DNA of 64,000 nucleotides. It comes from Nitrosopumilus sp. GTDB taxonomy: Archaea > Thermoproteota > Nitrososphaeria > Nitrososphaerales > Nitrosopumilaceae. The translations under genes and the position numbers were made by a program. Each line of letters opens with the position of its first letter. Position 1 is the first letter of the stretch. The stretch spans positions 166,884 through 230,883 of the forward strand of contig NZ_JAILWC010000001.1 of NCBI RefSeq assembly GCF_025699125.1, written 5' to 3'. Below the pieces are notes generated by a model that made no database searches, was not told where the DNA came from, and worked only from the letters and a program-made list of their open reading frames with translations. Positions 7,849 to 51,679 of the stretch are shown one piece after another.

Positions 7849-8019
7849 TTAGTGATCTTTTACACGTTTGGGTTTTGAATGAGCCTTTATCATGTGTTTT
7901 TTAGTTCTTTCTGGATCAGTGAACTCCATATCACAGATATTGCATTTATTGGAAAATGTGGTTTCTCTTTTTAGTATGCTTTTTACCAAATTTTTGTTAA
8001 ATGATAACTTTGGTTTCAT
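7849..8019 (-). CDS. Small C2H2 zinc-finger protein (56 aa)
   Basis: 56-residue basic protein with one classical C2H2 finger: CNIC, twelve residues, HMIKAH, followed by a Lys/Arg-rich tail (SKPKRVKDH). The start ATG at 8019 lies about 25 bp after TTATAA and 42 bp after the centre of a TTAACATTGTTAA palindrome, which fits a leaderless, regulated promoter. The stop is 2 bp before the double RAM gene. It probably binds nucleic acid, perhaps as a transcription regulator; the target is unknown. Confidence 0.75.
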   Translation of the reverse strand: MKPKLSFNKNLVKSILKRETTFSNKCNICDMEFTDPERTKKHMIKAHSKPKRVKDH

Positions 8020-8054: not shown

Positions 8055-8067
8055 TTAACATTGTTAA
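8055..8067. promoter_or_regulatory. Palindromic operator candidate, copy 1
   Basis: TTAACA-T-TGTTAA, a perfect 6-bp inverted repeat with a one-base centre. Its centre (8061) is 42 bp before the ATG of the C2H2 gene at 8019 and 17 bp before that gene's TTATAA box. The same 13-mer (reverse complement form) occurs at 8265 and 8703. Confidence 0.7.
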
Positions 8068-8125: not shown

Positions 8126-8215
8126 TTAGTGTTCTAATTGATCAGAACACTCTGTGGAACAAACATCATCACACCAGTGTTCAAATTCTTTTCCACATAC
8201 AATACATGTTTTCAA
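8126..8215 (-). CDS. Tiny Cys-rich zinc-binding protein (29 aa)
   Basis: A 29-residue frame starting with TTG: CIVCGKEF, then HWCDDVC and STEC, ending in an acidic tail. The Cys spacing resembles a treble-clef or zinc-knuckle site. A TATTTAC element on this strand lies at about 8251-8257 and a TTAACA-palindrome 17 bp further out, predicting transcription from about 8228 and a leader of some 12 nt before the TTG. Size and unusual start keep confidence moderate. Confidence 0.45.
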   Translation of the reverse strand: MKTCIVCGKEFEHWCDDVCSTECSDQLEH

Positions 8216-8264
8216 TAGGGTAATCTCACATCATTGTTTCCAGATTCAAGTATTTACAGAATAA

Positions 8265-8277
8265 TTAACAATGTTAA
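8265..8277. promoter_or_regulatory. Palindromic operator candidate, copy 2
   Basis: TTAACAATGTTAA centred at 8271. On the minus side a TATTTAC box lies 17 bp away before the 29-residue Cys-rich frame; on the plus side an ATAAATA box (8285-8291) also lies 17 bp away, predicting a transcript start near 8313 at the beginning of the structured RNA candidate. It therefore looks like a bidirectional control site. Confidence 0.7.
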
Positions 8278-8312
8278 GTGAATGATAAATACGCAAATGC
8301 TGTTAATCTATT

Positions 8313-8414
8313 TGTGTAGAGGTCCCTATTGTAAAATGATGTGATTCTTAGTTAAAACCCGCGCTGTACTGCTACTCAACTTCTGCTTGAGACGTACTAA
8401 TTAAGCATCATTTT
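8313..8414 (+). ncRNA. Candidate structured non-coding RNA
   Basis: No protein frame covers this segment, but it folds into a long nested hairpin. AAAATGATG (8333-8341) pairs with CATCATTTT (8406-8414), CTTAGTTA (8347-8354) with TAATTAAG (8398-8405, one G-U), GTAC (8366-8369) with GTAC (8394-8397), and CTCAA (8375-8379) with TTGAG (8387-8391) closing a 7-nt loop. The right strand is nearly continuous while the left has 5-, 11- and 5-nt bulges. The core is richer in G+C than its surroundings. An ATAAATA box lies 25 bp before 8313. The fold is symmetric in strand, so a minus-strand element after the gene at 8518 is the alternative. The rest of the gap to 8517 shows nothing. Confidence 0.5.
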
Positions 8415-8517
8415 GGCTTCTACATTTTAACCATTCAGGTAAAATACACATTCAGTAATTTCTCTAATGTTTTATGTTGAAAACCCTGAATTATTTCATA
8501 GAATTTTTAAATAATAA

Positions 8518-8667
8518 CTAGTTTCTAAATGTCCATTTTAATTCGCCATGCTTTTTTACGAATTCGTCTGGTGATACTTTATTGTGACTAGTTTTGATGT
8601 GAAACATGTAATCTTCCAATGACACAAATTCATGTTTGCATAGAGGGCAAATTTTTCTAAACGACAT
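8518..8667 (-). CDS. Small C2H2 zinc-finger protein (49 aa)
   Basis: 49-residue basic protein with one C2H2 finger: CPLC at residues 7-10, twelve residues, then HIKTSH (His 23 and 28), and a C-terminal helix rich in Lys. The ATG at 8667 is exactly 42 bp from the centre of the palindrome at 8703-8715, as is the TTG of the divergent cupredoxin at 8751. It resembles the C2H2 gene at 7849 in size and layout but not closely in sequence. It probably contacts nucleic acid. Confidence 0.7.
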   Translation of the reverse strand: MSFRKICPLCKHEFVSLEDYMFHIKTSHNKVSPDEFVKKHGELKWTFRN

Positions 8668-8702: not shown

Positions 8703-8715
8703 TTAACAATGTTAA
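8703..8715. promoter_or_regulatory. Palindromic operator candidate, copy 3
   Basis: TTAACAATGTTAA centred at 8709, midway between the divergent C2H2 gene (ATG 8667) and cupredoxin gene (TTG 8751), 42 bp from each. A TATTTAT box for the cupredoxin lies 16 bp from the centre at 8722-8728; the minus-side TATA element is weaker (CTAAAA). Confidence 0.72.
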
Positions 8716-8750: not shown

Positions 8751-9239
8751 TTGAACAAGACAAAGAAAAAATTATCCAAACTATCTAGAACAAACATAAT
8801 TTCAGTTAGTGTTGTTGCAGGTGTTGTTATTTTGATAGGGGGAATTGCATTGAATTCGCTTAGTCCGGTTAATTATGATGGTTTTGTTTTCGCTCCTTCT
8901 ACAAACGTATTCCTAAAGGCAGTAAAATCCCCTCAAGGTATCTACCATTATCAATTCACCAAAGGCGGTAAGGCACTTCAATCATCATCTGGGACATCGC
9001 CTTCAATTGTTATGTCTAAAGGAAATCTTGTTCAGATTCATTTGATTAATGAGGAAAAGAACCAACTTGACAATCCTTCCAAACACAATCTCAATATTGA
9101 TGAGTTTAATGTACATATCAAAGATCTTAGTTATTTTCAAAGTGAATCAGTCACATTTTTGGCAGATAAAGCAGGCACTTTTGATTACTATTGCTCAATT
9201 CACCCTGGTATGAAAGGCACTATCACAATTACTGAATAA
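8751..9239 (+). CDS. Membrane-anchored cupredoxin (plastocyanin-like)
   Basis: 162-residue protein with a basic N terminus, a signal-anchor helix (about residues 17-35) and an extracytoplasmic cupredoxin domain. The type 1 copper ligands are visible: a His in FNVHIKDL and Cys-His-Met in YYCSIHPGMKG at the C-terminal loop. Such small blue copper proteins are thought to shuttle electrons in ammonia-oxidising archaea, which lack soluble cytochromes c. The TTG start follows a TATTTAT box by 26 bp and shares a palindromic operator with the divergent C2H2 gene. Confidence 0.88.
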   Translation: MNKTKKKLSKLSRTNIISVSVVAGVVILIGGIALNSLSPVNYDGFVFAPSTNVFLKAVKSPQGIYHYQFTKGGKALQSSSGTSPSIVMSKGNLVQIHLINEEKNQLDNPSKHNLNIDEFNVHIKDLSYFQSESVTFLADKAGTFDYYCSIHPGMKGTITITE

Positions 9240-51382: not shown

Positions 51383-51679
51383 ATGGAGTTTACAGTAGTT
51401 AATTCAAAACCTGTTGTCTATTCACATCCCTTTTCTGAAAATACCCAAGCTTACAAAATAGATCCGATATACATAGAGAATCCAAATACTGGTGAAATGG
51501 TTTTGGATATTGATTCGATGCAACAAGTATTGGCAGTTTTAGAGAGTTGCGCAAATGATTCTCCACAAGAAAGAATGGCAAACCCTCTAAGATATACAAA
51601 TGACACTCATGTACTTCTAAATCTTGGTTGTGAATGGAAATCTGTTGGAAAGTATCTGGGAGTAGAAAATGAAAACTAG
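51383..51679 (+). CDS. Hypothetical protein (98 aa)
   Basis: 98-residue soluble protein with one Cys pair candidate (ESCAND and NLGCEWK), beta-rich at the N terminus (EFTVVNSKPVVYSHPF) and helical later. No family recognised. GTG 51377 is an alternative start, but ATG follows the GTGGGG palindrome. Its 3' end overlaps the tiny membrane peptide gene at 51669 by 11 bp. Confidence 0.6.
   Translation: MEFTVVNSKPVVYSHPFSENTQAYKIDPIYIENPNTGEMVLDIDSMQQVLAVLESCANDSPQERMANPLRYTNDTHVLLNLGCEWKSVGKYLGVENEN

Follow-up and report, generated by a model that had tools for sequence, protein, structure and literature searches.

A candidate small RNA family under a shared palindrome promoter in Nitrosopumilus and related ammonia-oxidising archaea

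A stretch of Nitrosopumilus DNA of 64,000 nucleotides (hereafter the window) very probably contains a real small RNA gene at positions 8314-8428 of the + strand. The RNA is predicted to start at about 8314 and to be closed by a long helix ending at 8425, followed by TTT, and by genome comparison it appears to be a member of an RNA family, not listed before, in ammonia-oxidising archaea. The existence of this RNA family is, in our judgement, very likely, and transcription of the window copy is predicted with the same high confidence. Comparative sequence analysis establishes the family, its helices P1 and P2, the anatomy of its promoter and its co-occurrence with a gene for a winged-helix protein. 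The complete explanation, in which a regulated stand-alone small RNA would act in trans by base pairing, has in our view a better than even chance of being right.

The original prediction, made from sequence alone for positions 8313-8414, placed a transcript start near 8313 downstream of an A/T-rich box and a palindrome. Both elements lie at the proper distance: the candidate regulator palindrome TTAACAATGTTAA, which is strandless, occupies positions 8265-8277, 36 nt upstream of the RNA 5' end, and a TATA-like box, TAAATA, is found at 8286-8291 of the + strand, about 25 nt 5' of the RNA, so that the start site is predicted at ~8314. The position of the box after the palindrome is kept in most copies. 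This promoter indicates a + orientation for the window RNA, and the segment contains no plausible open reading frame, as had been stated. The neighbouring genes bear the same palindrome. A second copy (8055-8067) lies 35 nt upstream of a gene encoding a 56-aa C2H2-like zinc-finger protein (7849-8019, minus strand; Pfam zf-C2H2 E=4e-4, under the curated cut-off), and a third (8703-8715) lies 35 nt before both a gene for a 49-aa C2H2-like zinc-finger protein (8518-8667, minus strand; Pfam zf-C2H2_4 E=4e-3, under the curated cut-off) and a gene for a cupredoxin-like membrane protein (8751-9239, + strand; Pfam Cupredoxin_1 E=2e-6, over the cut-off). The divergent side of the RNA promoter holds a treble-clef-like mini-ORF of 29 aa (8126-8215, minus strand; DUF2116 E=0.05).

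The genome carries seven perfect copies of the palindrome, in two clusters 110 kb apart. The genes that recurrently bear it encode C2H2 mini-proteins, a small membrane protein, a zinc-ribbon-like protein, a DUF1059 protein, a cupredoxin and a winged-helix protein, and an EMC3/TMCO1-like gene is found in their neighbourhood. At the RNA loci the promoter is independent and the site intergenic, with palindrome and TATA box at constant spacing in all examined copies, other genera included. The distance from palindrome to RNA is 32-37 nt within Nitrosopumilus and 33-34 nt in 8/8 copies of other genera, which were found with a promoter-free model (R1, below); for the leaderless genes of the regulon, the distance from palindrome to gene is 35-38 nt. 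The promoter block of the window copy is identical in the related genome G060. A possible third RNA of the regulon was noted on the divergent side of the subfamily B palindrome in G007 and G064: a shorter, 61-nt hairpin (TGGCGAGAACA ... TGTTCTCGCTA) that begins at the same spacing of 34-35 nt, after a TATA box (L007, minus strand from the palindrome at 1523; L006, plus strand from 1515).

When positions 8220-8500 (281 bases) were compared by BLAST with 120 related genomes, full-length similarity was found only in G060 (93% identical), and in several others the promoter block alone was matched. Downstream of this block, the relatives have divergent segments of 105-130 nt, each with a long closing helix. 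These segments fall into two paralogues, A (closing helix GCAGAAGC/GCTTCTGC) and B (GTAGAAGTC/GGCTTCTAC). In all, 36 copies were collected, 28 of A and 8 of B, the latter including the window copy; they are spread over three genera of one family, Nitrosopumilus and Nitrosarchaeum among them. R1, a covariance model built from nine A copies with neither B sequences nor the promoter, identified A in 15 of 95 Nitrosopumilus genomes, one of them with three copies. This genome, G042, has them at three places (L080, L081 and L082), two being alike in their first half and divergent after it. R1 also recovered, on the expected strand, the B copies of G121 (E=3e-4), G122 (E=0.0035) and G007 (E=0.007), and A and B therefore appear to be homologous. 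The window copy scores poorly with R1 (E=2.4); it is matched by the joint A+B model R2 (E=2e-7, G000:C1:175195-175310), of which it is itself a training row. R2 recovered most B copies, though these too are training rows, and found that of G058 in its own locus. An R2 match in G123 (E=0.0016) lies far from the sole palindrome of that genome and was not counted. Altogether, 17 Nitrosopumilus genomes carry A or B, and the genome of the window has one A (G000:C1:64604-64724) beside the window's B. A scan of 300 genomes of the order with R1 gave matches in three genera, all of one family.

The family has no counterpart in Rfam: the search suggested by the original prediction returned zero matches for the window region even at E<=5, five further loci had no match over the RNA in Rfam 15 at E<=1, and a scan of the whole window gave tRNAs only. 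No report of the family was found in a search of open-licence papers. Two other identities were considered and rejected. A mobile element or MITE is at odds with copies that occupy a conserved gene neighbourhood with a common promoter, and with a full-length BLAST match confined to G060. A C/D-box guide RNA is at odds with the absence of the D-box sequence CUGA from 8312-8427, where the sole resemblance to a C box (RUGAUGA) is an AUGAUGU, with one mismatch, within P2, and with the lack of an Rfam match.

The segment had been described as strongly folded into four nested helices, of 9 bp (8333-8341/8406-8414), 8 bp (8347-8354/8398-8405), 4 bp (GTAC) and 5 bp (CTCAA/TTGAG). The complementarities are located as described. 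The folding energy of the 102-nt slice 8313-8414, however, is -16.1 kcal/mol, virtually that of its shuffles (mean -16.2; z 0.02), and on the minus strand z is -0.07, so that the slice is not strongly folded on either strand. These coordinates cut away an outer 11-bp helix, P1 (5' strand GTGTAGAGGTC, 8314-8324; 3' strand GGCTTCTACAT, 8415-8425), which stacks on the 9-bp helix, P2 (5' strand AAAATGATG, 8333-8341; 3' strand CATCATTTT, 8406-8414, contiguous with P1). With P1 included, the window RNA (8314-8425) folds at -28.0 kcal/mol against -19.5 for shuffled sequences (z -2.73; 1/200 shuffles), and the RNAs of relatives have z values of -2.7 to -5.7. As the minus strand of the same segment has a z of -1.37, the strand symmetry that had been ascribed to the fold is only partly true. 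In G060 the 9- and 5-bp helices are unchanged, whereas the 8- and 4-bp helices are broken without compensation, the very observation that the prediction had named as speaking against it; the complete four-helix model was thus set aside and its 9-bp helix kept. The original prediction is right on the place, the orientation and the regulon of the small RNA gene, and incomplete on its fold.

The closing helix is retained through sequence change, reading TGTAGAGGTC/GGCTTCTACA in the window copy, AATGTAGAAGTCAA/TTGGCTTCTACATT in G007, TGTAGAATTT/AAATTCTACA in G002, TGTGGAAGT/ACTTCCACA in G058 and AATGCAGAAGCAAA/TTTGCTTCTGCATT in G003. Over 24 distinct rows, new genera included, 91.3% of P1 cells are paired and 7 of 13 pairs show two-sided changes; the covariation score of 0.268 is reached by 0/500 shuffles (mean 0.145), and slid controls do not go beyond 0.074 (without the new genera, the set has 18 rows). 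Part of this signal reflects the single old split between A and B (C-G to U-A at pair 6) rather than many events; separate changes are found in G128 and G321 (pair 2), G058 (pair 7) and G002 (pair 11). Inside A alone the P1 covariation is uninformative because the helix hardly varies there, and P1 is the sole helix that RNAalifold returned on A alone. P1 of the window copy differs from that of G060 only by changes that preserve pairing (G.U to A-U, twice). For P2 of subfamily A (GGAAAU/AUUUCC type), 7 of 10 pairs are changed on both sides in an alignment made by hand, with a score of 0.234 against at most 0.121 for slid controls. P2 of B, the 9-bp helix of the original prediction, is identical in G060, and in G121 (AATAATG/CATTATT) a single G-C pair is replaced on both sides by A-U. 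The conserved structure supported by covariation thus comprises P1, and P2 of subfamily A.

A candidate regulator is encoded in the other palindrome cluster. The winged-helix gene (L045 3388-3723, that is G000:C1:63387-63722) has TTAAC-N3-GTTAA in its own promoter, and its HTH_45/Sso10a-like product scores 23.7 bits against HTH_45; as the cut-off is 25.5, we label it HTH_45-like only. The 15 of 95 genomes with the gene (at least 74% identity) are precisely those with RNA A. In G064 and G058, B is present and no winged-helix gene was found; their palindromes lie near contig ends, so that the winged-helix cluster may have been cut off. Among 42 distant loci (<70% identity), 13 have the palindrome within the 150 nt upstream of the winged-helix gene and 10 have it in exact form, the background frequencies being 1.8% and 0.44% of windows (p=4e-13 and p=3e-15, respectively); the presence of the palindrome in the gene's own promoter extends to distant Nitrososphaeria. 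At the sequence level, winged-helix gene and palindrome are arranged as expected for a transcription factor that regulates itself and the site that it binds. The co-occurrence of this gene with RNA A, together with the palindrome in its promoter, places the RNA in the winged-helix regulon, and it seems that the RNA family has one dedicated regulator. Control of the RNA by the winged-helix protein through binding of the palindrome is accordingly what we would expect, with good though lesser confidence than in the RNA itself. The earlier proposal of a regulatory RNA of the palindrome regulon, on the + strand with a start near 8313, is upheld by the RNA family, the fixed promoter spacing, the covariation of P1 and the candidate regulator, from which we infer that the RNA is transcribed and regulatory.

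We propose that a stand-alone RNA of ~115 nt is transcribed from 8314 of the + strand. The winged-helix protein, whose gene lies ~110 kb away in a palindrome-bearing cluster of its own, would bind TTAAC-N3-GTTAA, presumably as a dimer, just upstream of the TATA box and so switch B together with A, the zinc-finger mini-proteins, the small membrane protein, the zinc-ribbon-like protein, the DUF1059 protein and the cupredoxin. The RNA would form a long self-closing hairpin with its 5' end buried in P1, and would act in trans, most likely pairing through its open interior. Trans action by base pairing is the less secure part of this proposal, a plausible reading to which we give somewhat less than an even chance.

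For paralogue A, and not for the window's B copy, a target can be suggested. The conserved interior segment of A, typically CTAGTTTTCATTT, carries a UAGUUUUCAUUU-like motif that the window copy of B lacks. The exact complement of the A segment, AAATGAAAACTAG, is a start region, (G)AAA-ATG-AAA-ACT-AG, that recurs among exported proteins which otherwise differ, the match being of 13 nt, and sampled occurrences often head ORFs starting MKTRLLIIIG. One such start region, AAATGAAAACTAGACTTTTGATAATAATTGGA, lies at positions 51667-51679 of the window and recurs at 17 further places in the same genome; the genes that begin with it are numerous and clustered and encode exported proteins that are otherwise different, which gives the impression that a single signal-sequence cassette has been spread. 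Across 95 genomes there are 266 copies of AAATGAAAACTAG and 35 of its reversed control; the window's own genome has 18 and 1, respectively. At least five occurrences were counted in 13 of 15 genomes with RNA A and in 8 of 80 without it (Fisher p 5e-9), or in 11 of 13 and 7 of 45 among genomes at least 90% complete (p 8e-6), both comparisons being confounded by ancestry and genome size. Two carriers of RNA A, G007 and G128, have no AAATGAAAACTAG, and their RNA is without the full motif. Three observations count against this target: the exported-protein family is present in genomes without the RNA (G071, G138 and G130), the Nitrosarchaeum RNAs mismatch AAATGAAAACTAG by one base, and predicted folds leave just part of the A motif unpaired, so that its accessibility is mixed. 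A first target search with the Nitrosopumilus-type loop AACGAAAACTAGGACA (at most two mismatches) had led, in 6/7 genomes, to internal codons of a conserved 509-aa gene and was set aside because coding conservation explains the recurrence. Our guess is that A would pair with the start-codon region AAAUGAAAACUAG of this multigene exported-protein family and block translation; such antisense blocking of start codons is a tentative idea and rather unlikely as it stands. Slightly more doubtful again is the full scheme, in which the winged-helix regulon would include two paralogous RNAs, the UAGUUUUCAUUU of A shutting off at translation a set of exported proteins (MKTRLLIIIG...) that are otherwise unrelated and number between five and two dozen, and B having diverged to another target set.

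Other readings of the same data were weighed. A could be a leaderless mRNA that encodes a tiny protein (MQ[KR][QH]..., 14-34 codons), the B copies being decayed or noncoding paralogues. In A an ATG coincides with the predicted start, 36 nt downstream of the palindrome, where the leaderless genes of the regulon also start, and its open frame averages 26 codons, whereas shuffled interiors average 17.5 (0/2000, the copies being related and not independent). An ATG at the start with at least 14 open codons is seen in every A of the genus and in most of those in other genera (e.g., L045 4605-4725), and is left unexplained by a noncoding reading. However, the peptides diverge completely past the four residues MQ[KR][QH], the conserved nucleotide motifs of A stand in different frames with length differences that are not multiples of three, and in B the start site reads ATG-TAG or GTG-TAG, all of which led us to conclude that the constraint is at the RNA level; the 3' strand of P1, moreover, is conserved despite its position outside the ORF. 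This lack of conservation of frame and peptide and the GTG-TAG of the window copy speak against a leaderless small-protein gene, and we consider the coding reading of the family improbable. About as improbable is that the window copy is a functionless, degenerating relic of RNA A, transcribed or not: it is without the motifs conserved in A, its score with the A model is weak and G060 departs from it in two inner helices, but its promoter block is the same in G060, the P1 changes there preserve pairing, and B copies in eight genomes keep P1 with compensatory changes of their own.

That the repeat acts as DNA, as an inverted repeat, a cruciform or a spread-out protein site, is very improbable. 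P1 and P2 are indeed complementary on both strands; against a role as DNA stand the fixed distance to TATA box and palindrome, the far higher model scores of the strand that the promoter defines (for example, 119 bits against 26, the model having been trained on that strand) and the 19 G.U pairs in P1 against 10 A.C cells. A stronger competitor, although still unlikely, is a protein-binding RNA that pairs with no mRNA, serving as a scaffold or as a sponge, whether for an Sm-like protein, for the HTH regulator or for some other factor, with the U-rich UAGUUUUCAUUU as the binding site. Conservation of P1, P2 and the short motifs CTCCAAA, TAGTTTTCATTT and AAGACAC across three genera is as much a pattern of protein recognition as of a pairing seed; yet the 13-nt match to the repeated start-codon sequence would then be a coincidence, and the B copies are without most of these motifs. 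We retain the regulated, trans-acting small RNA as the preferred reading.

Nitrosopumilus-like archaea are among the most abundant marine nitrifiers, and our literature search returned almost nothing on their use of regulatory small RNAs. What is now available is a defined RNA family and a covariance model for it, together with a promoter code, a candidate regulator and an initial target hypothesis that can be checked. If the proposal is true, post-transcriptional control in these archaea becomes directly testable, and signal-sequence start regions common to many genes would offer a shared handle for one RNA. RyhB and Spot 42 are regulator-controlled bacterial small RNAs. Like them, the RNAs described here would lie inside the regulon of a transcription factor and, as proposed, pair near start codons; they differ in having no homology to them, an archaeal promoter, genes located beside the regulator's other targets and a 5' end that is hidden in a flush helix. 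Both profiles of the Sso10a/HTH_45 winged-helix proteins (PF14947 and NF053610) match the candidate regulator weakly, below the curated cut-offs; NF053610 is named for a chromatin protein, whereas the candidate regulator seems to have a specific palindrome and a regulon. Short common promoter motifs have been described for the copper response of another ammonia-oxidising archaeon, Nitrososphaera viennensis (PMC7785015), and the present regulon includes a copper-type protein; a metal-response link through these published motifs was nevertheless discarded, their sequences being different. A further parallel is with the trans-acting intergenic small RNAs of Haloferax, Methanosarcina and Sulfolobus (PMC3432209), which are likewise intergenic, small, structured, provided with their own promoter and probably regulatory; according to that 2012 review, no thaumarchaeon had been examined. 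No relative in sequence or structure was found, and what would distinguish the present family from them is the placement of two paralogues under one dedicated winged-helix regulon.
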